DNA of 33,616 bases from Caryophanales bacterium. GTDB taxonomy: Bacteria; Bacillota_I; Bacilli_A; RF39; UBA660. Under the pieces are notes generated by a model. It was not told the origin of the DNA. It was given only the letters and a program-made list of their open reading frames with translations, and made no database searches. The position numbers and the translations under genes are program-made. This document shows positions 3,611-32,185 of the stretch, piece after piece; positions within the stretch are counted from its first letter, which is position 1, and every line of letters starts with the position of its first letter. The stretch spans positions 1-33,616 of the forward strand of contig JAEEZV010000062.1 in NCBI GenBank assembly GCA_016291995.1, given 5' to 3'.

Positions 3611-6600
3611 CTAAGCTGAAGCGAAATATTGTTTTATAACTGTTCCTCGATAATTAATAGAACCGTAAAGAGGAACTTTTGCTGTACAAACAGAAAAATC
3701 GCCATCGGAAAATTCAACTTCATATCATGCTTGATCTAAATAATAAATAACAAATACTTCATTTTCACGATTTTCATCTGTTATTTTATAAATAGTATTA
3801 TATTGAGGATTTTCAATATTTGCAATTAACAAATATCCATATTCTTGTTGAGCTTCAGAACTAGCCATTAAATCATTTCAATGTTTATTAGGACTTTGCA
3901 TATTATATTCGTTAGAGAAACCTCAATAAACAAGATTTTCAGTTTCTTCTATTCTAATTTTAGATGGATCCGATGTTGTGATATAGTTATACCAGTAACG
4001 AGAATAAATTTGATCTTCTGCGCCAGTAACAGATTCATCTAAAACATATTGCCATTCATCTAAATAAGGTCTATTATCATTTGGAGATTGAACCATCCGA
4101 CGGCCTAAGAATCTAACATCTTCAATATCAAATTCCGTCATTAAATTATACACACCAGTTTGACCAACTAAACGTTTTTCTCAATTATTACTACCAACTG
4201 TTTTAATTTCTAATAAAGCATAAGGTGTTACATCAAAACTAATACCAGTTCAATTTTGCATTTTTTGTTCTGAAACAACATAACTTATTTCTTCAGTTTC
4301 ATTAATTGTAACATTACGATAGCCAATTTGATGGTATTGCTCTCTAATAGTAGAACCTAAACTAACATTTGGATAAAAAGTATTCGTATATTGTCCAACA
4401 ATATCTTTCACTTTTTCAACCCTAGTAATCGTAGATTCTTTAGTATATTCAATTTGATATTCTAAAATATAATTTAATTCATACTCTTCTCCATTAAAAA
4501 ACTGTAATCCAGTAACATTTAAATCACTTGGAATTTGATAATATCCTTTCGGATTAACAAAAATGTCTTTATATTGAACTTCAGTTTGTTCAACAGAGTC
4601 TGTTTGAAGTCGTAATCTTAATTTATATCCTAGCAAGAAATTTTCTGCTATATAAGAAGAAGATTTTTGTCCTCCAAATTGTTCTAAATATTTATCAACT
4701 GAAACGCCATCAATTTCTGTACTTAGAGTAGAATTATTAACCATTCAAAAAGGTTTAGAGGTAAACTGAATTTGGAGGTTTCTCATGAGAATAGACCCAT
4801 TTCTAACTTTTTGATTTTTGAGTATTCCCGTATATTCTTGATTTAATTGATCTAAAATAGTAATAGGATCAACTCATCCACCAAAAGCAGAATCTGTAAC
4901 TAATACACTTCCAGTAACTAAGTCTTCTCCAACAATATATTTGTCATTTTTAAGATTATATTGCTGAATTCTAACAATTTCTATAGTATCAGTTTCATCA
5001 TCTTCGTCATCAGAATCGTCACTATTTTTTCCTTTTGCTTTTAATGCGGTGGCTTCATCATTTCTAATTGTTATAACGCCATAGTCATGTAATTTTTGAA
5101 GATCATTGCCATCTTCAATTTCATACATTGTAGCATTAAAACTATATAATCTACGACCGATAGTTTTATTAGGAGTTAATGATATATCATTTAACATAAC
5201 TATCATATTTCCTTCAGTCATTGAACGGAATAATTTAGGTTCACCGTCATTTAATCAAGCAATGACTCTCTCCCTAAATTCTCTTTCTCAATATCAATTA
5301 TCATGAAGGTATGTATCGTGTTGTCCTTGTGTAAAAGGATCTTCAACCGCATTTAAAATAGTATCATTGCGTATTTGATATTCGTTTCCGATATGCTCAT
5401 CATATGCTTCTAAGGTTGGAGCAAATTCATCATCATTATCATCTAAAAATTTTCTGTTAAAATCTTCTTCTGCACTAATTAAACCACTAATAGAAAATTG
5501 TTTATAATTCATGCGAGCATTTTCAGCAAATTTAGGATATTTTCCACCCAAGGTATCTATTTTAACCCTATTTACGACTGGTTTTAATGAATTAATCGCC
5601 CCATCAAAACGAATTGCTAATTGTTTATCTTGCCGCAAGAATAACATATCATAAAAATTGGGGAAAACAAACATAGGAGCTGTTCTAACAGGAGATCATG
5701 TCCCGCCTTCTTTATAATGATATTGTGCCCTATATTTATATTGTAATAAACTACAAACAGTTCTGTCTTCAAAGTCTTGATCGATCATTCCTTTATGATA
5801 TGTTACTTGAATAATTTCATTTGTTTTATAATTATCTGCACTAGAACATCTATAAATATATAAATATCCAGGATACATTTCTTGTTTAGATTTTACATTA
5901 CCAACAACAAAACCATCCTCTTCTGTTACAATTCGTTGAGATAAATCATTATAATTTACAACTTCAGTCCCATTTCAATTTATTGTATCTCCTGAAGTAA
6001 CATCGTTATAGCTATTTAGTAAAATTGTATTAAAAGTTCACTCTAATTCAAAATTCTGATTATTAAAAGTAGCTATTTCAATAGTTTTTTCATCTCACCA
6101 TTTATAACCGTTTCGTGTTTCTGCTTCAATGTGAATAACATAGGATTCGCCAATAGTGGCGTTATTCATGTCTGCTAGATAATAAACAGAATCTTTTTCA
6201 TTATTTCCGACATAAATAACGCCTGAATCAACTAACACTATATTAGAATTATCTGTTGAAAAAATAGTAATTTGATAATGATCTAAATATTCAGTGTTTG
6301 TCTCTGGTGGAGACATTCATCGAATTTGAGCGGCTATTGGAATAAAACCTTTATTATAAGCAGGATAAGTTTGTTGAATATAAGTATATCTTGTAGAAAT
6401 TCCATCTGAACCAGTCTGTATTTCTGGATCACTCATATAATCATCTATACCATTAAAACAAAAAACTGGTCTAGGAATAGCTCTTAATAAAGTAACACCT
6501 GACCATTCTGAAAAATAAGGCCTTTCTGTTAAAATATATTGAGATAAAACTACATTTTCATCATTTAATTTTTTAGATGAACAATCTAATCTTAACTGTG

Positions 6601-7476: not shown

Positions 7477-10400
7477 TTATGATACAGTAACTGCACTAAC
7501 CTCATAATTATTCAAATAATAAGTATGTCCATCAATAGTAACATTTGGAGTAGCTCCAATATATTGTAAGAAACTACTTGATGAAGTATGACTATGCGAA
7601 CTCGGAGTAAAGCTTGAAGGTTTATTAGAAATGTCACCTCATCCAACAGAGTTTCAATAAGCAACCGCACCTAGTTCACTAAATCTACTATTAATATATT
7701 GAGCATATGCATCAACTAAACTAATTTTATCTAAAAGTTGTTGAATAAATCCATATAATGTACTAGCTTTTGCTGAATAACTATGACTATAACCACCATA
7801 TGTTCCATTGCCTGTAATAGTATGTTCTTTAAAATATAGTCAACTACTATCATTCTCTGGCATAGTAATTCAATTAGTTTGAATACCTGGCTTAATAGCT
7901 CATCCAACACTATCTTTAATAGCATTTGTCTCTACTAATTTCGGTCTAATGCCTCACTGGTGCCTAATATATGCACCATCATTTGTCGTAATACTAACTT
8001 GGGGATTTTCATTTTCGTTTGACACATTAATTGTTCCTATTGCTCTATTTAAATTTAAAGTATTCCCACTATTAGGTCTAAGCCTTATATAAACAAGGCC
8101 TCCTGCATTATCATTATAACTATTGATATTCAAACCATCATTACTTGCATCTTGAGTAATATTCATTTTACCAACAGAATATAAATTAAAGTTTCCTTTA
8201 GAATGTAAATAACTACCATTTGTAGGAGTTAATCGTAAAAAACTGTTATAATAAATATAACCATCTGTTGTATTCCCACTTCGACCACTCGCTCCAGTAT
8301 AATACCCCAATTGAATTCTTGAAACAGGAGAGCTTCCACTGGTTTGTCCCATTAATAAAAATGGTCGAAGGTAATTATTTGTATTTGAACTAGTATTTTC
8401 TCCATAAAGATTACAATTTAATTCAGAACTAAAATTAGCATTACCCTTTGCCCAAATACTTGCGGCACTCGCAACATTTGTTGTTCAAGTATTTCCACCA
8501 TTAAAAATATATGAATCAGCTACTTCTATATTATGTTTTTTACCAAAATTAAAATTAATATTGCTTTCTGTAATATTAAATTCACTATCATTATTATTAT
8601 TCATGGAAATATTTAAATATCCTTGTTTTACAGAAGAAGTATTTCCTAAATATACTCCATCTTTAGACAAAGTGATTTTAGAATTAGTAAATTTTGAAGT
8701 TTTATTATTATTATTTCCATCAATTCCATCAAAAGCATATAAACTAAGAGTTTTTCCATGAATACTTAATGGACGAGTATAATCACTACGATTACCAGAT
8801 GAGCCATGCTCTCCACCGGTAATATAAATTGTTCCGTCATCTTCATCTACTGTATTTTTTTCAGCAAATAAAGAAATAAAAGTTTTTGTATTATCAACGC
8901 TATTTCCTGCTTCAAATTGCGCGCCAATATGAGTTGGATTATCTTCTATATCACCAAAAGCTCAAATATCGCTTACAGAAAAGCTCGTACTACCATTAAC
9001 TCCACTTCCACTACTAGAAGCACCGTCTTGTAATCTATTAGCAATAAAACGTCCTTTATTATCAATACCAGATAATAATATTCGTTGATTACCTCTGTGC
9101 CTAAAAATAGAAAAAATACTGCGTTGTAAAGGATCAAGTTGTAATTCTAAAGAGTCTCCTTCTGCAATATTAGTACCAGGCTCAGTATTTACATCACCAG
9201 CTGTTAATTCACGTCCTTTAATTGAAACATACGGACCACCACGATAAAACCATTTATTATAATCTGGATGATCTTCTGATACATTTTTTTGATAAGGTTC
9301 ACCAATAGCAGTTAATAAAATACCTTGATCGCTATGAGCAATATCATGTTCATGTTCAGTAGCATAATTGTCGTTATAAGGATCAGATATTTCTCCAGAA
9401 GCAGTATAATATAAAGAACGACGGCCAAGGCGTCAACCACCAACTTTACTAACTCCGCCAGGCACAAGTTCAATACGACCTTCATTGTATCCTTGAGTTC
9501 CTTGTCCACCAAACTTATTTTCATTTGGTAAACCAAAATAAGCATTTCCAGTCTTAGAATCTAAAAATATGCTTTGTTTACCATGCGAAAGTCCCAATAA
9601 ACCAATATCTGATTCATCCTCACCATAAGCAGACATCTCTCCCATTACAACACCAGTAAAAGTATTATCATTTTCTTTTTTACCAGCACCTATTTGTGGA
9701 GCCACTATATATCCTGCATCTTCATTAATGTCAACATGATTTCCATCTCATGCATTAAGAGAAGCAAGACCATAAACATTTAAAGACATATAAATTGGAA
9801 CTAAAATCTTTACTTTGTTTAAATTTGAATCACTTAAACTATTTTGAAGAGCCGCACTTTCTGTATTATATGTTTGTGTTAATATATTAATTTCATTGTT
9901 ATAATTGTCTAGTGTTGTATTATGCTCTTCTAAAAGAATATTTTGTTGTTCAGTATAAGCATCATTATTCTCATTTAAAATAATCTGTAATTCGTCTGGT
10001 GAATTTTTATATTGTTCATTAATATTTTTTATTTGTTGCTCATGCTCTTTTTGTAAATTAATCTTTTTATTTCTATAATCAATATTTTCTTGCCGAATTT
10101 GTTGATTAATATTATTTATATTTTCATTATATGTATTAGTTAAATTTTTTATGTTTTGTGTAATATCATCAAGAGTCTGTTTAGCCTCAAAGGAAGAATA
10201 AGTAATAATTTCTACTCTATTATCACAACTTACTCCATTATAATCTTCTGTTGGCAAAATATAAAGGCCATCTTTATTAACGGTTTGTAATACAAATTGA
10301 CCATTAATACTATCTTTTTCTTCCAATAGACGAATAGGAATAGTATTATTTTCTATCTCACCTGATTGTCCAAGGCCACCCGCCACCTTTCATTCAGTAT

Positions 10401-13400
10401 AACGTCCTTCTAACCCGTGTAAAAATACTCCTTGATTCTTGTTATATAAGGGAGTGCGGCCGTCCGCGTTATAAAGAATTTGTTTTAGATATTTTTTATT
10501 ATCTAAATATAATAAATTTTTACCAGTTACAGGTAAAAGTTCTGATTGAATATCTGCTAATGCTCCATTTGTTTGAACAACACAAATAGGATAAACGCAA
10601 TGATATTCTTTTTCTCTTATTGTAACAGTCGCTTTAATTATTAAGTTGGTATAATGATTATTTTTTTCACAATTATAATGTAATCTTATTTGATTATTTT
10701 GCAAACTATTATCACTATCATCAAACTCTCAATAATTACTTCTATTAGTTCCACCTAAGACTTCTCAATGAACACTGGTAAAATCAGATGAAGGAATTTC
10801 AATAGACCTGTTATAAAGTTTTACTTCAAGAATTGGATCTAATGAATTAGAAGTTGTCGAAATATTTCAAAGACTTCTCTTCTCATTTCCATTTTTATAT
10901 TCATAAACTGTTAATGGTTGAGTATCTAAAATCCGTCTATTATCATTTATTGTGATAATCTTCGCTATTATATCTGTACCATTTGTTCCATTATCACCAA
11001 TTTTTCCAAAATAAAAATCTGTATAAGCTGTATAGGTTTCATTTCCATATTTTATAATACATTGAATTTGATTATTCGTACAATCATAATCATACGATGG
11101 CGCGATAGAAAAATCAGTTGTTTGACCTTCAACCATATCAAAATCATGTGTAACAATATTTTCATATAAGTTTTCTGGTGGTACAATTAATGTATCGACT
11201 ATAGGATAGCGCCAATTAACACTATAAGTTCCTTCATTTACTTCTAATCCATTCGGATCATATAAATGAGCTTTTAATTGAAGTATTTCTATCGGTTCTG
11301 TATGCCTAAAATCAGTCGGTGTAATATTTCCTGCGAATAAAGGACTTACTCCTGTTTCGCTATATTGAAAAATTTGATTAGCATTGTCAATTACAACTGT
11401 AAAATTATTCAATGTTGGAATATCTTCATTATATAAAGCAATGCTCCCGGTTCCAATACAATATCATTTACTTAAATTATCAATATCTGTTTGCATATCA
11501 ACAGTATAAACTTGACATTCAAAATTTATTTGTGACGCATTTCTAATATTTTTGATAGGATATTGTATCTTATTTCCATTTATTCCTAAAGGATAAGAAA
11601 CATCTAATAATTCAATAGCATCTTTATTTAAACTAATTCTAGTATTATAATCTAAAATACTATCAATTTGATTTTTAACTTCATCATATGTTTGAGTAAA
11701 AGTAAATATCTCACCTGCTGCGGTTCGCTTAGACCAATAAAATTTAAATTGATTATCTTGCTTATTTGATTCAAAGAATGATTCTTTTCCATCAATTAAA
11801 CAAGTTAATAACGGTTTGCCGCCATCTCATTTAAATTTCGTTCCAAGATCTGATTCAATTGTAATATTGCGCTTACAGGCTTCATTATAAAGGATAAACT
11901 GTTCTTTTAATGTAATAAATGAACCGCTACCGTCGTCATAGACCGCCGTGCATAAATATATATTTTCATAAGCTTTATTGTCAGAAGCTTTTAAAATAAT
12001 TTGTGAAGCATGTTCATGATTAATATCACCTAAATATCTTCAACCAACTCCGCCATGTCAATTATATCTATCATCTTGAGAAGAAGATACTCTAATATCT
12101 TTTACAAATCAATAAAAAGTACAATTATCATTAATATTTGTTCATTCTTTATATGTAGTTCTTGCCTTCGCAATTAAAGTTTCTTCTTCATTTACACTAT
12201 AAAAGATAGCTCCATTTGGAGTGTTTACAGTAATTTTATAATCACCATATTCAGAAGAAATTTCTTTTAAAGCTAAGAATTGAACATTCTTAACTCAAAT
12301 ATCTTTTCCATGATATTGACCGTCAGAATCTAACATTTTTAATTTATTAGAATCAACAAAATTATATCCATCAATATTTTCTATAAAACCTTTACAATAA
12401 AAAGCTATTTGATCAATTCCAATAAAATCTTCTACATCTATTGGAAAAATAGTATATTGATTAGAAAATTGTGAAAAAAGAAAAGGATTACCAACCATAT
12501 GTGAACTATCTAAAACATATGAAAGAATCTTTTCAGGTTGATTAATATTATCTTGTAAATTTGTTAATGACTGATCAAATCATTGAGAATATTTTTCTAT
12601 TAAATTATTAATATTTTCACTATTTAATAATTCTGCTATTAAAAATTGATAAGCAGTAAAAATACTCTTTTCTTGTGTTGTAAATTTTTCTTTATTAATA
12701 TCAAGAAAATCTATAATTTTTATATAAATAGCTGTTAAATTATTTTTTAAAATATCAAAATCAGAAATATTATTTATTTGATCTTCAATTTGTTGTTGAA
12801 AATCAAACATAGAGTATAAAGTTTCTCCGTCTGGTAAATAAGCTTTTACATTATTAGAAACTGCTGTAAATAATTCACCATTTGTAGAATAAACTATTTC
12901 TTTATTTTTAAAAATTAAATTAAAAATTAATCCATATTCTGCTTTAACTTGATTTTGTTGATGTTGATCTAAAGAAGTACGAAAATCTGCTGAAAGCATG
13001 ACAGCTTTAGCATCTTTTATATAAGTTTCTAATTGAGGAATATTTAAATTATAAGGAACTTGATTCGTTTTATTTCTATCATATAATAGTACAATATCTT
13101 GATAAACACCATTCTGTTTTGTTTCACTATAGGAATTTAAACCAACGCCATTCATAGCATATTCTTCATTAATTAACTTTAAAGTATTTGTTCCAATGAT
13201 AGAATAATCATTTATTGCTGATGAAACCGTTTGAATCGTATTTCCAACATAGTAAGAACTAGCATTTCCTAAAATTATTTTTCTATTTGAGAAATTATTT
13301 TGAGGAATCTGCACATATACTGTTGTATTTGGCGCATAAGTAGTTCCAACAGAAGCATAAGCTGTAAAAAATCCTCCGTTATATTTTACTCTATGCGACC

Positions 13401-13539
13401 CATCTTGCGCGGGAGCTAGCGCTTTATCAATAGTAGCGATGATTGTTTTATCTAAATCTAAATCTTCGATACGTTTATTGACTAAAACATCAACAGCTTT
13501 TAAGATAGTATTACTATCTATTTTTTTTGAATTAGCCAT
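7477..13539 (-). CDS. Very large tail fibre / tail-tip receptor-binding protein, ~2020 aa
   Basis: ATG at 13539 with AAAGGAGAGTTTA upstream; frame-0 ORFs 12580-13539, 12295-12498, 10867-11412, 10390-10704, 9748-10386, 9433-9705, 8485-8670 and 7954-8352 plus unlisted stretches join through TGA with no TAA/TAG seen by eye; coiled-coil-like segment about 9840-10180; C-terminal WGDISNKPSSFTPSSHSHTSSS motif typical of phage tail fibres; TAA at 7479-7477. Confidence 0.8.
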
Positions 13540-13661: not shown

Positions 13662-16600
13662 CTATCGTGTTTTATACGCATATTGGAAGGCATTATCAGC
13701 TAAACTTAACAACGCCTCTCTAATATCTTCTGCCGTATCAACATTAGGGAATTCTGCAACGATTTCAACTCGCTGCTCTATGCTATCTCCGACATTAGAA
13801 TTAACTCCGAACATTGAAGGCATATTAAGAGCATCTGTATTTTTCATATTATTGATAATTTGACGTACTATATCAACAGCACCTAAAAGATTTTCAGTAT
13901 CTTGAGCATTTAATACAAGCTCTTTTTGATGAAGAAGAGCTAATCTTCCTCCTTCAGTATCTTTACTGCCATCGACTCATGTACCGGTGTAACCACCTGT
14001 AGCGTAACCTCAAACATCACTACCTCAATTGACTAAATCCCCAGTACTAGCATACTCGTTAATATATTGTTGAGTAAGGTTGGCAATTGCTTCGCCATAT
14101 CTAGCAGTAATACGGCTGTGCCTATCTGGATCATTCCCTCAACTACCATATGTTCAAATATTTTGAGCAATACCTCATGCTATTTGTGAATCGGTATATC
14201 CGTTATTGTTGCTGCCGCTTGTTGATTTTGGATTATCATGATAAACACCATCTTTATCAAAATATCCATCGCCTTTTGAGACTTTTTCAATTTGAGTTTT
14301 ATAATTTGCAGCTTCGCGTGTTTTACTGTCTAATTCATTTTGCGCCTGTCGCAAAGAAGAAGCCAATGCGCTAGAAGAACTTTGTAAGCTTTCGATTTGT
14401 TTTTGATATCTTTCTAATGCCAACGTCGCATCATCGATTTCTCCAGTGTCCCCTCTAATAATACGCATAAACTCTTCTGTTGATTCATTTAATGAACTCA
14501 TATCTTTTGTTACGTCATTAATAATTTCATTAATATTTGAAAAACTAGTTTCTGCTGTATCTTCTAAGACACGAAGTTTATCATCAAAAGTTTCTGCCGC
14601 GGTAATTGTTTCATCTTGAGCTTGTTGAACCCTTTCTCGGAATTTATCTGTATCTTCTGTTAAATTATGTAATTCAGCAGAATAGATAACACCAATTTGT
14701 TCAAGTGTATCTGCTCAATTTTCTTGCATAGAATCTGCAATATCTTCAAACATTTGAGAAACATAATCGCTAGTATCTTCCGCAAGATGTTGAACGCCTT
14801 CAATCATACCTTCTTGAGCATCTTTAAGTTCTAAACCGAGATTTACTTGACGTTCGACATATCATTCATTAATTTCATTGAGAGCTTTGTTTAATTTATC
14901 TTGATCATCTTTATATCGTTCATTAGCAAATCGAACTTTATCTTCATATTCTTGCTGTACCTGCCAACGTTCATTTAAAATGTCTGAATAACGTTCTTTA
15001 GACATCTCATAGATTTCGTATTCAGAGTCTGCTAACTCTTCTTGTGCCGATAAAATATCATCTTGATTTGCTCTATAAACATAACGATAATTACCTTGCG
15101 TGTCACGACGTAATTGCATTTGATTTTTATTACGTTGTGCTTCTTCAAGAGCAATTTGTTTTTGTAAAGCTTCAATTTTAGCATTAGCTAAATCAACGTC
15201 AAATTGTGATAAAGCATTAACGTATTCAAGTTCACCTTGGTTGTTAATAATTGCTTTCTTTTGGTCTTCTAATGCTTTAAGAATAGCTTTTGCTCTATCT
15301 GCATACTTTTGATCGGTTGCATCTATAACATCATCTTGAATTTTTTGAATGCGGCCACGAAGTTTTTCAAGCTCCATTCCACGTTCAACATTATCAAGAT
15401 ATTGTTCCGCTTGGTCATTAGCCATTTCTCATTCTTTTTCAAAGAATCCCGCGTCACCAAGAGTGCCACCAAATAATTCGTCCCTAAAATGTTGAATTAC
15501 GGCCTCGGTAGCATCCTCATATTGTTTAGCCATTGCATCCGCGGCTTCTTTGGTTGCATCTGTTAAAGCTTCACCAAATTCACGAGCTTTTTTATCCATT
15601 TCTTCTCAAAGCTCTTTTTGAGTTTCTTTATTATATTTATCGCGTTCTCGTACTCAATAATCATATTGTAGTTTAGCTTCATTAACTTTTTGTAAAGTAC
15701 CTTCAACCTGTGCTTGATTAACTATACCAAACATATCATATGATTCATCCCCATGAATTAATTCAATCATATCTCTTTGGTGCTCTAAGAAGTTAAGTTC
15801 ATATTCTAATTGTTCATTGCGGAATTCCATACGGTCTGCAAGTTCGTCATACGCATCAATAATATCATCAAGAACATCTTCGTATTTACTCTCGACGTCT
15901 TTCATATCTCCAATAATATCATTATAAAGATCTTGTAAATCTTCATAATATTGTTTTTCATTGGAGCCATAAATATTACGACCTTCTTGGCTTAATAATT
16001 TTTCAAGATAGAATTGCCGCATATCTAAAATGGAAGTGCCATTACCAAATTTATTTTGCGCTTGATCGCGCGCATCTGTTCAAAATTGCTTAGAAGCAGC
16101 ATCTGTTGCTCCATCAATCATTGTTTTGAAGAATAGATTTGCATTAGTAGTTGTTGTGCCAAACAATCCTTCAAGAAGATTTAAATCTTCAACTAATGCA
16201 CGGAAAGGAGAATCAGATTCACGATTAGTAAATAATCCTTGTAACCATCCTTTAGACTCATTCAAATCTTTAAGAGTGTCAACCGTTTTAGTAGCAGTTT
16301 GGAAGAGATCAATTGCAATATCTTCCATTTCGTGCTCATTTTCAAGAATCTGTTCTGTATCATCACGAATTTTATCGCAAACTTCTTGATATTCATTTGT
16401 TACATCAAGAATTTTATTCGCATATTCTGCCGCATCTTTTTGAGCCTCTTGGAGTTTCTTATAATGTTCTTGTTGATCCTCATTCATCTCACCGCCAAGA
16501 GAGTTTCAATAATCATCCGCAGCTTTTTGCGCGGCATTTTGTTTTGCTAATGCTTCATTATATTTTTGAATATAATTATCTATTGTACCATCATTATCAG

Positions 16601-19600
16601 CATCAGTTAAACCGTATTTAGCTAAAGATTCTCCTTTAAGATAAATACCATAATCAGGATTATCTTGACCGCTTATAAGTGCTTGTTTCTTAGCTTCAGA
16701 AATTTTATTACGTTCTTTAAGTAAAGCATTTTGTTTTTGAAGATTATTGATCTCTTTTTCTGCGGCTTTGCGATATTTATCTCCATACGCTCGGCCTTTG
16801 GCTTTATCAACTTCTGTATAATTATCTGCTAATTCTTCAAGTTTAGAATTGACTTTATTATAAATATCGTCATTTGATTCAGCACTTTTAGCTTTTTCTA
16901 CGGACTTGGTTTTGGAGCCACCTCCGCCACCTCCACCGCCGCCTCCGCCTTTTCCACCACCAGAAGCGCCGCCACCGTGAGAAGCATTGGCATATTTTGC
17001 ACCACCGCCAGCTCCTTTTTTAGCACTTTTAATTTTTAAGCTACCACCAGAACTTTTTCCTCCTGAACCAGTAACTTTCATTCCAAAAGCACTAAACATT
17101 TTAGAAGCTGTTGTCTGTGCAATCTGAGGAATCATCTGAACACCATAAACAGTACCAGTATAACTTTCCATTTTAACGTCTTTGCCTTCACCAATTGGCA
17201 AAGTACTTGTAAAAGTTCGTGGAACTAATTGTGGCATTAAACTAACATATGTTTGCGGATCTTGTTGTTCAGTTGTTTCTGATTCAACTTCTGCATCAAT
17301 ACCCATAGAAGATAAAGCTGCCTCAGCTTGTTCTGCACTCATGCCTGCTGCATTAATCATATTTTCACAAGCTTCGATAAAACCAGAATCATCTATTGTT
17401 GCACCAATTTCAATATCATTAAAATTGATGGCATCCATTTCTGCTCATAAATTATCTAAAGAAGCTAATGCCGCTGAATCATCAACTGCTATGTTTGTTA
17501 CAATATCTTCAGCTGCTCTTCTTTGAAGTTCATCATACGCATCAATATCACCATTAATTGCGGCTTGTAATAATTCAAGATTTTCAGGATTTGTTGCAAA
17601 AGCATCTGAAACAGATAATCCTTCTCCAACATCTAGTAAATCATTATAAACATTAGACAATTCTTCTGCTGCTTTTGCATGATCCTCAACAGCATCAGAC
17701 TCCAATAATTTTTGTCAATCTTCTAAATTTTCTTGCGCTTTTTCTAAAGATTTATCATATCGAAGAATTTCTTCTGTAACTTCTGCTAGTTCATCTGCGT
17801 CTTCTTCTAAAGCTTCGCTAAAGCCTTCCATTTCTTCAGCGTTTTCACCAATATATTCGGCTAGTTGCTTAAACTGTTCTTTATCAACATCTGCATCTTT
17901 TGGACCCATTGAAGCCGCAGCTTCGCTAGCCTTCATAGCTTCTTCAGTATTAATGGGATTTTCTTTTGCAGCTTCGTTAAATGCTTCTCTAAAATTTTCT
18001 CAAGCATTTTTGCCATTTTCTTCAAAAAATCCCATTGCATTTAAATCAGATTCAGACAACAAAGAAAAATCTAAACCTTCAAAATCACTTGCAGTCATTG
18101 AACGAAGAACGCCACCATTTATTTCGCCTTCTCCAGCAAAAAGATTAGCGCCTTTCTCGCCAATTTTATTTTTAATATCATCATAAGCTTCTTGTACTGG
18201 ACCAACAATACCATCCGCATTATTTCTAATTGCTTCTGCAATGGCTTGACCAATTAAAGCAGTGTCTATGTCAATATTATCTCAATTGACTTTTCCAGAT
18301 TCATCTCCTGAATCACGAGCAGCTGTTGAAGTATAGTATTCTCCATTTTTACCTACCACGTACCCCATTTGTTCAGCATAGGCCGCTCGTTTAGCACTAT
18401 CAGACATATCGCTAACTTGTTTACTGGCTTGTTGATAATATTCATTATTAGTATCATTTAAATAACCAGCAACTTGTTTATCCACAATACCCTGAACGTT
18501 AGCATCCGCATTATCATATTTACCGGTTCCAGTCATGACTTGTGCAGCGTATGCTTGAGTAGCAGATTGAAGTGCAACAGTATTTTGTTGAAGATCTGCA
18601 CCTAATTTATAAATACTGTCTTTATTTGCTGCAAGTTCTGTTGCAACTTCTTCACTTACTCCTAAGTTATCAGCTAAAGTTTTAGTTAATTCTTCAGTTG
18701 ACATTACTTGAGTTTCAACATGTTCTGCCATATACGTAGCAGCTTTTTCAAGCTGAGCGCCAGCTCCACTCTCATCATATCCATTTATTGTTATAGGAGC
18801 ACCGTTAGCGTCAGCTGCTCCTTCGACATATGTAGATGAAGTACTTGCAGTTTTAAGGGCTTTATAATCTCCTTCACGAACAAGATTAACGGCATCTCTT
18901 CTATTTTTAGCAGCTAATTCTTCTTGTTTTGCTGCAACCATCATTGCCGCAGCACTTGCTTGCTGTTGTTCAGCAATCTCTCTTTGAGCTTTTAATCCTT
19001 GTTCATTAAAAATCAAAGCACCAGTATTTTGATCATGCTCAACATATTGAGCTAATTCTGGATATTTGTCAATTAATTCAAGAACACTATTATTGGTTTT
19101 TTGTAATGCTTCATTCCATTCTTGAGTTCCACGAGTTAAACTTTCAAAAGGATTTTCATCTAAACCTTTGAGAGCACTATCAATATCAGTAATTAAAATA
19201 GTAGAACGTTTATACGCTTCATTAGCTTGTTTTACATGCTCTCCTGCTTCAACAACTGCAGTATCAAAACGATGAAAACTTTTATCAGCTTCTCCTACTA
19301 AATGTACTATTAATCCAATAGTACCAGCAACCGCGGCAGCTATAGCAATAAAAGGCGCCGCAGCTGCAATTAATGGCAACACTGTAGCTAATAAACCAGT
19401 ATTAGCAATTGTTAAACCAGTTTTAGCTGCGGTTTCAGCTACAGTAGCTTCTGTTACTCCATAAGTAACAGCAATTTCAGCTGCCTTTTCTCCACTAACA
19501 ACACCTTCTACTGCAGCTTCTGCTAATGCAGCTGCCACATTTCCTAATCTAGCATCAGTGCTTCCAATTTCTGCAATTCTAGCAGCCATTGTAGCAGCTG

Positions 19601-22262
19601 CTTCTTCTTCTGTTGCAACAATTTCTGCTTCTGTTACTACAATGCCCGCAGCTTTAACAGCCGTTGCGATTTGTTGAGCTGCGCTAAACTCTTGTAAAGC
19701 AGTTTTTAAAGTCCCAATTGCGGCGCCTGTTTGTTGGATTGCAGGTAATCCTAAAGCCAAAACCATTGCAAAATCCATTGCACCAGCTTCTAACTTTTCA
19801 AAAGGACTTTTAGTTTCGTCTGAAAGAATACTCATTAAATTAGTTAATGATTGAATTGCAAACAATGCAGATAAAGCTCCGTTTGCAATTCCAGCAAATC
19901 CATTCATTACTTCTTGTAATTTAAGTGAAGCAGAAAATTGAGTAAACTGTCCTTCCAAGTAAGTAACAGATGTTGCCGCATCTACTGAAGCCGCTGAAAA
20001 ATGATACATCTGCTCTGCTGCTTCATTGATATCTCTTGGCAATCTACCCTCTAAAAATCCAACTAATTGAGCCATTGTAATATTAGCATCTTTTAAAGCG
20101 GCATCTATCTGTTTTATAGAGTTTGCTCCTTTTAGCCCATTTAAAGCAGCAGTAATTTTTTTACTTTGTTCTGCAGTAATAATTTCTTCATCAACCATTT
20201 TTCTTAGAGATGCTGTGACTTTATCAATTTCTGCAGATGTAATCTGTAATGGGTTACTTTCTAATTTAGCAATAAATTCAGAAAAAGCTTTGGTAGAACT
20301 GCTTATATAATTAGTTAATTCTTCAAACTCTTTTGAAGTAAAATCAATAGCAACTCCGTCTTTTTCCGCGGCAGCTATATTGTCTAGGAGCAAATTAATA
20401 TTTTTTTCCATTTGAACTCCAGCAGCTGCTGCAGCTACTCTAAGTTGACTTTCAAAACTTATTCGTTTTGATTCAGCTTCAGAAAGAGCATTTTCAGCTT
20501 GAACTCTCTGCATTGTTAGCTCTTGAGCTCTCCGCTGCTGCTCTTCATTCATAATTGGAGCATATCGATTTATTTGAGCAATATCATTAGCAAATTTATT
20601 CATACGAACATCTGCAACATTTAAACCTTCACCTCGAAGTTGTTGCCTTGCTAATTGCTGTTGAGCTTGAAGATTTTCGGTTCCTTGTCTGTCTGCAATT
20701 CTGTTAGTAATAAAATTACTAGCTCCACGAGCAATAGAGTTACCTGCAAGTTTTGTCATTACTGCGGCAATGCCAAGTAAAGCAGTTTCTCCACCACCAG
20801 TTGCTTTAATTAAATCATTAAGAACATCGACTAATCCACTAAGAGCATCAACAACGCCATTAAAACTATCACTATTAAATATATTTAAAAATACTTCTTC
20901 AATTTTAGATTGTAAAGTATTTAATCTACCTTCTAATGATCGTTCATAATCAGATTGCATTGAATCAAGAGTTTCTGTCCCAGTCTGCGCCCGAGAAGCT
21001 CCAAGATATTCTTTATATAAGTCAGAACGATTCATTAAAGCTTCAAAACGAGCGAGTTGGAAACGACCAGCTAATGTTGTAGCCGTCGCAGCTTTTTGAG
21101 TTTGATCTAATGTACCCCAAACATCCATTAAATCTTCTACAATGACACCAACATCTCGCATTTTGCCTGCGTCATCAAGAACTTGAACTCCAACTTTAGA
21201 AAGAGCAGAAGTAATTTGACCTAAATCCACACCATCTTCAAGAGTTTCTCCAAGTTTGACATCAGATAAACGAGAATAAATAGTTTTAAGACCATTACCA
21301 ATATTTTCAGGAGCCTCACGAGTAACAGTTTCAATTGTAGCAATCGTAGCTGCCAATTGATCCATATCTACGCCAACAGTGGTAGCGACAGACGCAGCTT
21401 TTTGAGAAGCCACGGATAATTCTTCTACATCTGCCGCAGATACATTAGCAACTTCCGATCACTTAGAAAGAGCATTTCCAATATCTTCTAATGGAATTTT
21501 ATAAGCATTCATATATGCTGTAATTTCATCAGACGCAGTTTTAGTATCTTGTTGAGAAACATTGCCTAAAACAGTCGAATATTGAGCTAACTGTTGAGAT
21601 TTCTGTAAATCATAACCTTGCTGAATAAATACTTGAGTAGCGTCTGTCATAGCAACAGTAGTGCTACCAAGTTTTTGCGCAACTTCGTTAGCAATTCGCG
21701 CATAAGCATTCATATTTTCTCTAGTTTCTCCAGAAACCATCATAATATTAGTCAAAGATTTATCTAAATCTTGAGTATATTGAGCCGCTTGATGAACTGA
21801 ATTCATCATACCAGCAAAAGCACTAGCAATAACACCCCATCTAAAAGTGTTACCCATAGTATTTATTATTTTATCTGTTGTTTTAGAAATACTACGTAAT
21901 CCAGTATCAATTTTAGATACTTGCCCATAAAAAGAAGTAAAAGCTCTAGTTCCTGCTGCACCTGCATTACTAAAAGACTGATAAATTTGATTCATCGATA
22001 GCCCAGCAGTTTTTAACTCATTCATAAACTTAGTAGTATTAAGCATACCAAGCTTTGGATTAAAAGCATTAGTTAGAGCAGTTTGAACTGTTTTTATATC
22101 GCTAAGAGTTTTATTCAAACTTGTTTGGGGAATAAGTCCCTTAGCACCCATAGTATTAACTTTATTTTGTAATTGTGTAAGTTCAGACTGCAATTTTGCA
22201 ATACCGCTATTATCAAGAGTGGTACGAATATTATACTCTACAGTATTGGAATACTTCGCCAT
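13662..22262 (-). CDS. Tail tape measure protein, ~2866 aa
   Basis: ATG at 22262 (MAKYSNTVEYNIRTTLDNSGIAKLQSEL) with AAGGAGGCAAGAGGAT upstream; ten same-frame ORFs from 22322 down to 13662 join through TGA=Trp; classic TMP content (coiled coils, hydrophobic segment ATVLPLIAAAAPFIAIAAAVAGTIGLIVHLV, C-terminal YATGGYTGTWVDGS...GGRLALLHQKELVLN); true stop TAG at 13664-13662. Confidence 0.92.
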
Positions 22263-22323
22263 ATCCTCTTGCCTCCTTGTATTCATCCAATAAATGGAGA
22301 TAATCTCTAAATAATCTGTCAAA

Positions 22324-29475: not shown

Positions 29476-30036
29476 TTATTGAACTCTACGTCCTGTGCTT
29501 ACAGTTTTATTTTCTTCTTGTGCGTTAACACGACGTTGCTTTGGTTTATTATCTTTTTCCGTAGTGCCAATTGCTTCTTCTAATGCAATTTGAGTATTAA
29601 TCATTGAAGTAATATTTTTACCTGTATTATTTTGAATTAATTCTCTTTTATTTACATCTGGAATACGAAGCTCAATAGCTTTATCTACAATCAGATCAAT
29701 AATACCTTCAGGAGCAAAATCTAAAGCATCATGAAGTTTATCCATACTTCCATTAAGAAGCAATTCTTCTACTTCTTTTGGAGTTCAACTATATTCATGA
29801 TCAAAGCTATCAAGAGAAACGCCAAACTCTAAAGCTAAGTCTCTATCTTTCACACTTAAAAAGTTTTGTAATAAAGATTCTCCGCCAGGATGGTAATAAA
29901 GTTTACGTAATTCTGTTGGAGTAATTTTCTTTATTTCATGTGCCGCAAATACACGGCGAATATTATCTTCAGGAATAGTATAAACAACTGTTCCACCAGT
30001 TAAATTTTGTACCTGAATATATTGTTCATCTGCCAT
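29476..30036 (-). CDS. Head-region protein, 186 aa, unknown function
   Basis: MADEQYIQVQNLTGGTVVYTIPEDNIRR...; SD AAAAGGAGATTATA; ORFs 29785-30036 and 29476-29763 joined by TGA (HEYSWTPKEVEELL). Confidence 0.75.
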
Positions 30037-30068
30037 TATAATCTCCTTTTATCTCAAAATGCGTAGAA

Positions 30069-30095
30069 GGGGAGGGAGCATTTGCTCCGCTCCCC
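30069..30095 (-). terminator. Strong intergenic hairpin after the capsid extension; weak T-tract, so terminator or 3'-stabilising stem
   Basis: GGGGAGCGGAGC-AAAT-GCTCCCTCCCC on the minus strand with one mismatch. Confidence 0.5.
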
Positions 30096-30124: not shown

Positions 30125-31111
30125 CTAGAAGTCAATATCTCCAGAATAAGTACCACCATTAATGGTTAAGCGGCTATGAGGATCTTCGCCCTCTGGGACG
30201 GTAATTGTAACAGTTTTAACTCCTTCATCTGTTGTGAAGGTACCGTCATTAAGAGTAACCGAACAATTTGCTCACTCAGGATATTTAGCTGCGCCATCAA
30301 CATAAACAGCACTGCAATCGGCCAAGACGCGGCTGTCGCCAACCTTGCCTTGAACGTTACCTGTTGTAACAATTGTACCGCCATTAATTTCAACTTGACC
30401 AGCACGAACAAGAACACCGACACCATTAGTGATACGGAATGTACCACCGTTAACTGTCAATGTACCATCTTGTGGTTGATAAATACCGCAAGCAATGTAG
30501 CCAGAGCTTTGAATACCACCGATAAATGTACCATCATTGATAACAATATCAGTACCGCCCCAACCACGAGTACCGTTACCTGCAATAACAGCATTATCTC
30601 TAGCAGTAAAGATACCGCCATTAATTTCAATACTTGAACCTTGCTGCATTGCACCAACTGCAAATTCTTGACTTGTAACTGAACCACCATTAATAATTAC
30701 ATGGCCAACTTCTCCTGAGCTACTACCAGCCCAAATTGCGGTGTCATTACTGGAATTATAATTACCAGATTCGATAGTGACTGTAGAATCACCAACAGCA
30801 ATTACGGCATGACTTTGAGCATTAACAGTACCGTTCTTTAATGTGACATCGGCACCATTATCAGCAACGATGGCTATGCTATTGCCAGTCTTTGTTAAAG
30901 TTTTACCATTTAAATCAATAGTCATATCCTTATCAATGACTAATGACTCTTCTAAGGTTGCACTTTCACCGATCTTAAGAGTTCCGCCTGCAGGCACTGC
31001 CGCGACAGCGTCTGCAATGGAATCATAATCACTAGAGTCTATTGGCTCTGGTTCTGGCTCAGGACCTGGACCCGGTTCAGGATCAGGCCCTGGCTCTGGA
31101 CCCGGGTTAAT
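30125..31111 (-). CDS. Putative readthrough extension of the MCP: Pro/Gly/Glu linker plus beta-helix-like domain, ~328 aa
   Basis: Same frame as the MCP and directly after its TAG; INPGPEPGPDPEPGPGPEPEPEPIDSSDYDSIADAVAAVPAGGTLKIGESATLEESLVIDKDMTIDLNGKTL...; repeated INGGxF/VTLKNGT-type turns; one internal TGA (YPEWANCSV at 30274-30272); TAG at 30127-30125; no ATG or SD near its 5' end. Confidence 0.8.
31043..31105 (-). repeat. Low-complexity PGPEPGPDPEPGPGPEPEPEP-encoding linker, GC-rich against an AT-rich background
   Basis: Direct read of CCG GGT CCA GAG CCA GGG CCT GAT CCT GAA CCG GGT CCA GGT CCT GAG CCA GAA CCA GAG CCA. Confidence 0.85.
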
Positions 31112-32185
31112 CTAACTACGAGTAGCTTTCTTAAGCTCACTGTTGCGATATGCGCAAATCCAGTTAAGCTTACCAAGAGAAGCTACAGTACCAATACCAA
31201 CCTTGGTATAGGTCTGCATATCTGTTGACCAATCATCATTATCAGTAATCTCACGAATATGGGTTTGACCCTCAAAGACAACCTTAATTGGCTTTTCAGA
31301 ACCAACAGGAATGATATAAGCCTGAGCAGGATCAACAACCTTCTCCATGTTAGTTTCATCAACTAGAGACTGATCAAGAATAATAACTTCATGACCCTTA
31401 TAAGTTAAGAGCCAACCCTTCTCCCAAAGAGTATCCTTCATCTTCTCAGAGATACGAGCTTCAGAAGGAATCATCTTTGCAGCAAATTCCTGTGTGCAGT
31501 AAATAGCAGCCTTGCCATAAGTATCAGCAATAGCAAGTAATTCGTCCATTGTTTGCTCGTCGAAACCAGCAACAGTAGCCTTATTTACATCAGGAATATT
31601 CTCCACCATAGCCTCGAGAGCCTTGGCAACCTCAGCATAGATGAAGTAGTCCATTTGGTCTAGAATGATGGAAGTGAAATCAGAGAACTGCCAACGGCCA
31701 TCGAGGAATTCCTCGAAACCAATACGAGCAGCACTGCCGATAGCACCAGTCTGAACCTCCATGGAAGCACCATCGAGCATAAAGACTTCATAACGACCAG
31801 CAAGACCAACACGAGTTACGAATGTGCGAGCACGACGCTTAGCAAATTCAGTAACCTTTAGACGGAATACCGCCTTATCGCCCTGCGGAATACGCTGAAC
31901 ATCAGCAAAGCGCATATAATTTTGCTCAATACGAGGAGGAAGAACTTCACTAATAGCTTGCTCAATTAAAGCAAAGATTGTGTTCTTATTCTCTTCGTAC
32001 TTACGATAATCGCAACCGCGACCTTCAACGTAACCAGTTAGAGTTTTAAATTCATTTGCTAGAGCTTCATTAACTTGCTCTGCAGAATAAGTTTCAGTTG
32101 CACCATCAAAGGAGAAAGTAGTAGAAGTACCACGCTCTGCCTTAGCAGCAGCAACAGCTAACTTTTTAAGTTCGCTAAATTCCAT
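31112..32185 (-). CDS. Major capsid protein (HK97-fold type), 357 aa
   Basis: ATG at 32185 (MEFSELKKLAVAAAKAERGTSTTFSFDG...) with GAAAGGAGGATTAGTA upstream; order after the scaffold and a small head protein; HK97-like content (NYMRFADVQRIPQGDKAVFRLKV..., ...MQTYTKVGIGTVASLGKLNWICAYRNSELKKATRS); TAG at 31114-31112; no TGA. Confidence 0.82.
   Translation of the reverse strand: MEFSELKKLAVAAAKAERGTSTTFSFDGATETYSAEQVNEALANEFKTLTGYVEGRGCDYRKYEENKNTIFALIEQAISEVLPPRIEQNYMRFADVQRIPQGDKAVFRLKVTEFAKRRARTFVTRVGLAGRYEVFMLDGASMEVQTGAIGSAARIGFEEFLDGRWQFSDFTSIILDQMDYFIYAEVAKALEAMVENIPDVNKATVAGFDEQTMDELLAIADTYGKAAIYCTQEFAAKMIPSEARISEKMKDTLWEKGWLLTYKGHEVIILDQSLVDETNMEKVVDPAQAYIIPVGSEKPIKVVFEGQTHIREITDNDDWSTDMQTYTKVGIGTVASLGKLNWICAYRNSELKKATRS

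Follow-up and report, generated by a model that had tools for sequence, protein, structure and literature searches.

Candidate amber readthrough from a tailed-phage major capsid gene into a predicted beta-helix domain, and putative alternative recoding modes at the same junction in related phages

The window, i.e., the whole 33,616-nt stretch of DNA analysed here, carries on its minus strand a gene for a 357-aa protein, most likely a major capsid protein (MCP). Its TAG stop codon is followed in the same frame by 328 further codons (31111-30128), which open with INPGPEPGPDPEPGPGPEPEPEPI and run to a second TAG (Table 1). The initial annotation had described this arrangement correctly, including a linker that opens immediately behind the stop. 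In translation this linker is rich in Pro, Glu and Gly over about 23 codons. The extension lies in frame 0 relative to the MCP, and the -1/+1 frameshift layout of T7- and A118-type phages was not found in the window. The computed masses are 40 kDa for the MCP and ~73.5 kDa for an MCP-extension fusion.

Table 1. Features at the MCP stop junction and around it in the window.
Feature	Position	Strand	Description	Basis
MCP	31115..32185	minus	357 aa, ends ...ELKKATRS	PHROG 4088, E 2e-57 (unnamed PHROG)
AGGAGG Shine-Dalgarno	5' of MCP gene	minus		sequence
Junction TAG, proposed leaky (readthrough) stop	31112..31114	minus	context CGT AGT TAG ATT AAC CCG	
Pro/Glu/Gly-rich linker	31043..31111	minus	~23 codons from first codon after stop (INPGPEPGPDPEPGPGPEPEPEP)	translation
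Beta-helix display domain (predicted)	30128..31042	minus	~305 aa	homology and model
Second TAG	30125..30127	minus	end of extension	sequence
Terminator-like hairpin	30064..30095	minus	GGGGAGCGGAGCAAATGCTCCCTCCCC, between extension stop and next gene	folding
Next conserved head gene	29476..30036	minus	186 aa, own AAAAGGAG Shine-Dalgarno, synteny anchor	tblastn across relatives

A sequence profile search of solved structures gave no match, and an earlier AlphaFold model of the MCP, built on a 19-row alignment, reached a pLDDT of 55 and showed no significant fold match. The model of the read-through product, for which we used a 50-row alignment headed by that product, reached a pLDDT of 72. Nearly all of the top 50 PDB matches in a fold search with this model were HK97-fold capsids or encapsulins (best E 2e-6); 229 PDB matches had E<=0.001, with moderate target-normalised TM-scores of mostly 0.4-0.6, and the best BFVD matches were named 'Capsid protein' (E 1e-14). 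The fold search thus backs the HK97-type assignment made from the sequence in the initial annotation, the HK97 fold being defined by an N-arm, a long spine helix and P and A domains. The protein is 44.5% identical to its counterpart in phAss-1, 33% to that of Enterococcus phage EF1/H1 and, more distantly, 25% to those of SPbeta-like phages. Homologues are placed behind the terminase in phiCDIF1296T and behind terminase and portal in Geobacillus E3, and tblastn detected the next head gene in nearly all relatives, marking a conserved head-gene cluster. The most likely identity of the 357-aa protein is that of MCP in a large siphophage-type lineage related to these phages.

The extension is modelled mostly as beta strands, with a pLDDT of ~90 or more for most of fusion residues 381-480. 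It is homologous to the extension of a related locus, L020 (41% identity over 339 aa, E 4e-73), and to extensions that in other relatives lie behind a putative frameshift site (L051, E 2e-12; L053, E 2e-16) or a UGA codon (L034, E 5e-10). The extension of L043 matches the Pfam family Beta_helix (PF13229) with 31.5 bits against a cut-off of 25.9 and also resembles a tail-spike PHROG, whereas the window and L020 extensions gave no Beta_helix match.

At the base composition of the window, the chance of a 328-codon run free of TAA and TAG is ~1e-9, and in 20,000 shuffles of the extension segment not one stayed open. Open in-frame runs after stops are nothing unusual by themselves here: their 90th percentile is 94 codons, because in such compact genomes the next gene is often in the same frame. 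An ordinary case lies at window position 3611, where TAG, GGAGG and ATG are followed by an in-frame gene; we rejected it as a further readthrough case because it has both a Shine-Dalgarno (SD) sequence and a start codon. The MCP extension differs from these ordinary in-frame neighbours in that neither a start codon nor an SD accounts for the ORF. Counted from 0, the earliest start-like codons of the extension are a GTG (codon 38) and an ATG (codon 62). Both lack an SD core, and none was found within 60 nt of the window junction. The earlier statement that the ORF has no ATG and no SD is hence correct near the junction, but has to be amended for the internal ATG. A start codon or SD at the junction was likewise not found in L020 and L040, in which the first start-like codons lie 59 and 67 codons in, respectively; L034 and L043 have a GTG at codon 4 after their TGA, without an SD.

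TGA, which the initial annotation took to be reassigned, is read as Trp by the window phage: we counted 84 in-frame TGA codons against 33 TGG, one of the TGA codons being located inside the extension (W280). TAG was not found internally in any of 10,534 window codons, and several window genes terminate at it. Two code-4 ORFs, one of 2020 codons (7477-13539, no PHROG or Pfam match) and one of 2886 codons (13662-22322, by its size probably the tape measure gene), contain no TAG. Since these long genes lack the codon and the extension itself terminates at it, TAG does not serve generally as a sense codon in the window, and the sense TAG codons within genes that go with a genome-wide reassignment (code 15) were not seen there. 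The MAG binned with the window contig (G000:C69) carries prfB, encoding RF2, and the sole Trp tRNA seen there has the anticodon CCA. Either the contig was misbinned, or it belongs to a phage that recodes a stop codon in a host with the standard code and then probably supplies the Trp-UCA tRNA itself. No UAG reader was present among the typed tRNAs of the host bin, in which 22 tRNAs were found, and of the 13 tRNAs typed on the related phage contig L032 (125 kb, code 4, MCP with a short TAG..TAG tail), one has the anticodon UCA and none has CUA. Low-level near-cognate decoding of UAG is the simplest assumption; a phage tRNA that decodes UAG is also conceivable, as the window phage is represented by a 33.6-kb fragment.

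Since the window extension alone as a query gave no matches in viral contigs, relatives were sought through the MCP. MCP searches yielded 79 distinct loci, the window included; a genus-level search returned nothing beyond the own genome, and L196 (apparently the same as L022), L198, L199 and L200 came from genome searches across the order and the class. The MCP is unextended in 64 loci, and the next head gene then mostly lies 70-190 nt behind its stop, commonly with a terminator-like hairpin in between. An in-frame TAG followed by a linker and a large domain was found in the window, in L020 and in L040/L042 (431 codons). L020, a rumen MAG phage whose MCP is 62% identical to that of the window, has the same layout of TAG, linker and homologous beta-helix, and in L040 and L042, which are alleles of one phage from two metagenomes, the order MCP, TAG, linker and domain is kept. 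L034, L043 and the fragment L033 carry an in-frame TGA before linker and beta-helix. In L051 and L053 (beta-helix), L025, L027, L022 and L199, a C-terminal domain is encoded in the -1 frame; the domains of L025, L027, L022 and L199 are small, and those of L025 and L027 are related to each other, resemble head-fibre domains and match the unnamed PHROG 31690. The initial annotation had proposed searching related MCP loci for a stop, a linker and a domain, and L020 repeats all three. An independent downstream gene with its own start was not seen in the relatives; the L020 extension is in frame and precedes a terminator-like hairpin.

Short tails of the TAG..TAG or TAG..TAA type are present in L019, L029, L032 and L024. 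In L019 (=L004/L026), L029 (=L007) and L032 (=L010), the MCP TAG is followed by 22-28 in-frame codons, forming a linker that ends in DSLFLDP, and a second TAG; indels in these tails are multiples of three and the changes within DSLFLDP are synonymous. They may represent short readthrough tails. L032 additionally has a Big_2 Ig domain fused directly in frame to the MCP, and none of the 79 distinct loci has a beta-helix fused to the MCP without a stop or shift. Right behind the stop, the linkers of nearly all in-frame loci open with x-[N/D/E]-P. We do not claim this motif as a readthrough signal, as linkers at the frameshift loci start similarly.

Evidence for translation directly after the stop comes from the L040/L042 pair rather than from a close pair of the window. 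The two extensions differ at 47 nt, 38 of them at third positions, with a dN/dS of 0.078. Between the TAG and the first shared start-like codon (TTG, codon 67) all nine differences are synonymous in the MCP frame (P ~6e-6) and none is synonymous in either of the other two frames, which indicates that this stretch is translated. Short of an unusual start, only ribosomes arriving from the MCP would be able to translate it. The amber readthrough proposed in the initial annotation gains support from these codons, which evolve as translated protein. The window and L020 extensions have a dN/dS of 0.38, with TAG kept in both, and the beta-helices of L034 and L043 a dN/dS of 0.24, intact behind TGA. 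In L034 and L043 the structural genes flanking the MCP contain 20 and 13 TGG codons, respectively, and no TGA other than the one at the junction; TGA is therefore a stop in these phages, and a sense reading was rejected on the codon counts. L034 and L043 would accordingly be the cleanest readthrough case.

All six -1 loci have an in-phase XXXYYYZ heptamer within the overlap (AAAAAAA, AAACCCT, AAAGGGG, GGGAAAT), against a background of 4 of 72 other MCPs with one in the last 12 codons; AAACCCT, AAAGGGG and GGGAAAT are the heptamers of L025, L027, L022 and L199. The presence of a heptamer at every -1 locus suggests that homologous domains are reached in the same place by an independent, well-known recoding route. 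Stop codon use differs as well: the in-frame-extended MCPs end in TAG or TGA in five of five cases, never in TAA, whereas the unextended ones end in TAA in 57 and in TAG in 7 of 64 (Fisher P 7e-5, falling to 1e-7 once the four short TAG tails are counted in; both values are optimistic, as the loci are not phylogenetically independent). Folding of the window, L020, L040, L034 and L043 placed the hairpin 3' of the extension rather than between MCP and extension, and an equivalent hairpin lies directly behind the MCP stop in most unextended relatives checked. A conserved stem-loop or other stimulatory RNA structure 3' of the stop was not found in the window or the relatives folded; a hairpin 3' of the window's TAG has a z of ~-2.2, and most relatives are without one that strong.

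In the MCP tree, L020 (UAG) stands beside L025 (frameshift) and L029/L019 (short tails), L024 (short) is sister to L027 (frameshift) and L053 (frameshift) to L050 (no extension), while the window forms a long branch of its own. As the extension modes are interleaved in the tree, modules and recoding modes seem to have been exchanged repeatedly. That relatives appear to rely on UGA or on a -1 shift in this same place goes beyond what the initial annotation had envisaged. It appears likely that this lineage of large tailed phages uses the MCP C-terminus as a standardised docking point for swapped display modules (beta-helix, head-fibre-like and others), which would be kept at low copy by UAG readthrough, by UGA readthrough in phages retaining UGA as a stop, or by -1 frameshifting, whichever signal is available.

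On the comparative evidence, UAG readthrough would be the best reading of the window locus, and we give a probability of roughly 80% to readthrough of the MCP stop that yields a minority of beta-helix-bearing subunits. Most ribosomes would terminate at the UAG and release the 40-kDa capsid subunit. A minority would insert an amino acid there, by near-cognate decoding or possibly by means of a phage suppressor tRNA, and would continue in frame through the Pro-rich linker into the beta-helix to give the ~73.5-kDa fusion. This fusion would co-assemble through its MCP part, so that a minority of subunits would bear a beta-helix on the capsid surface, where it would probably serve as an adhesin or carbohydrate-binding decoration. 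What the analysis shows is the sequence layout, the HK97 fold by prediction, coding-type selection behind the stop in one pair of relatives and the recurrence of the layout with different recoding signals; that UAG is read through, how often and with which residue, and that the domain is exposed and binds a ligand, are inferred.

The extension might instead be a separate gene, translated from an internal start or by reinitiation after termination at the MCP stop. Neighbouring genes often share a frame in these genomes, protein-level selection on the domain would be expected for an independent gene too, and the GTG at codon 4 in L034/L043 could serve as a start. The first start-like codons in the window, L020 and L040 lie, however, 38, 59 and 67 codons in, within the domain region, with no SD core near the junction, whereas the ordinary neighbours examined in the window show clear SDs. 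The L040/L042 codons ahead of the first shared start change only synonymously, and in relatives homologous domains are joined to the MCP by canonical -1 sites. We therefore regard a separate gene as unlikely. Slightly less likely still is efficient decoding of UAG by a phage- or host-encoded amber suppressor tRNA, which would turn the junction TAG into a late-phase sense codon and leave most of the MCP extended. phAss-1, whose MCP is 44% identical, does use TAG as Gln with suppressor tRNAs (PMC10607447), and the window phage has already given TGA to Trp. Against this stand the termination of window genes, the extension among them, at TAG and its absence from the interior of genes; the typed tRNAs of the host bin and of L032 likewise include no UAG reader, and the UGA and frameshift versions of the layout suggest a low-level product.

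A former direct MCP-beta-helix fusion could have acquired the TAG as a recent nonsense mutation, leaving the extension as a decaying remnant, and direct fusion does occur in this MCP family, as the Big_2 domain of L032 shows. A stop or a frameshift site at the same junction across divergent phages, the dN/dS of 0.08-0.38 in the extensions and the lack of any stop-less or shift-less beta-helix fusion among the 79 loci make such decay very improbable. An assembly or binning artefact, in which the TAG would be a sequencing error in a plain fusion, deserves a thought because the MAG that contains the window is fragmented. A stop at the junction is, however, present again in the independent assemblies of L020, L040 and L042 (TAG) and of L034 and L043 (TGA), and we consider an error, which the initial annotation had named as a possible source of the TAG, the least credible explanation of all.

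RNA phages and plant viruses are known to extend coat proteins by readthrough. In Qbeta, a leaky UGA at the end of the coat gene gives the minor extended coat protein A1 of the virion; the leaky-stop logic is alike, whereas Qbeta is an ssRNA phage with an unrelated coat fold, uses UGA and has an extension that is not a beta-helix. Luteovirus-type CP-RTD proteins arise by UAG readthrough of the coat protein, with a Pro-rich linker opening the readthrough domain, but as products of plant RNA viruses with unrelated proteins they offer an analogy of layout only. Among tailed phages, frameshifted capsid extensions have been described for T7 (10B), T3, Listeria A118/A500/PSA and Lactobacillus A2, and for Ig-like capsid domains the direction of recoding is apparently indifferent (PMC5009743). 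As proposed for the window, recoding lets one MCP gene of the T7/A118 type yield an abundant short capsid protein and a minor one with a modular domain added at its C-terminus. These phages use a -1/+1 frameshift into an Ig-like or other small domain, whereas the window has an in-frame UAG (UGA in relatives) and a beta-helix, and frameshifting is here confined to relatives of the window phage. The phAss-1/Phassvirus group and Enterococcus phage EF1 share a homologous MCP and large siphophage-type genomes, with recoding in the group; phAss-1 has no extension behind its MCP, and TAG, a stop in the window, is reassigned in many of its genes (PMC10607447).

We found no prior report of in-frame stop readthrough in a tailed-phage MCP in the open-access literature searched. 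The in-frame UAG/UGA signal, the beta-helix module and the exchange of signals within one family would be new here, while the logic of a minor extended subunit is already known. If correct, the family would provide the first case of a tailed-phage MCP extended through an in-frame stop, together with a natural exchange of readthrough and frameshifting at one junction. The two are usually regarded as alternative routes to a fixed product ratio, and few switches in homologous genes are known; with UAG, UGA and -1 modes at one junction and related domains behind it, it becomes testable whether selection acts on the ratio and not on the mechanism. Phages that reassign one stop codon may also keep another one leaky. 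Standard gene callers truncate such MCPs or call a start-less ORF, so that many display domains of gut and rumen phages have probably been overlooked.

A different kind of MCP tail was observed in L021, L030, L036 and L046. These loci carry ~1.5 kb with two genes between the MCP and the next head gene, an insert restricted to loci whose MCP tail consists of a collagen-like GxT/GES repeat. The two genes of L030 were typed as Glyco_transf_8 and Anp1-like, the latter below the cut-off, and the collagen-like tail is possibly glycosylated by the adjacent transferases.
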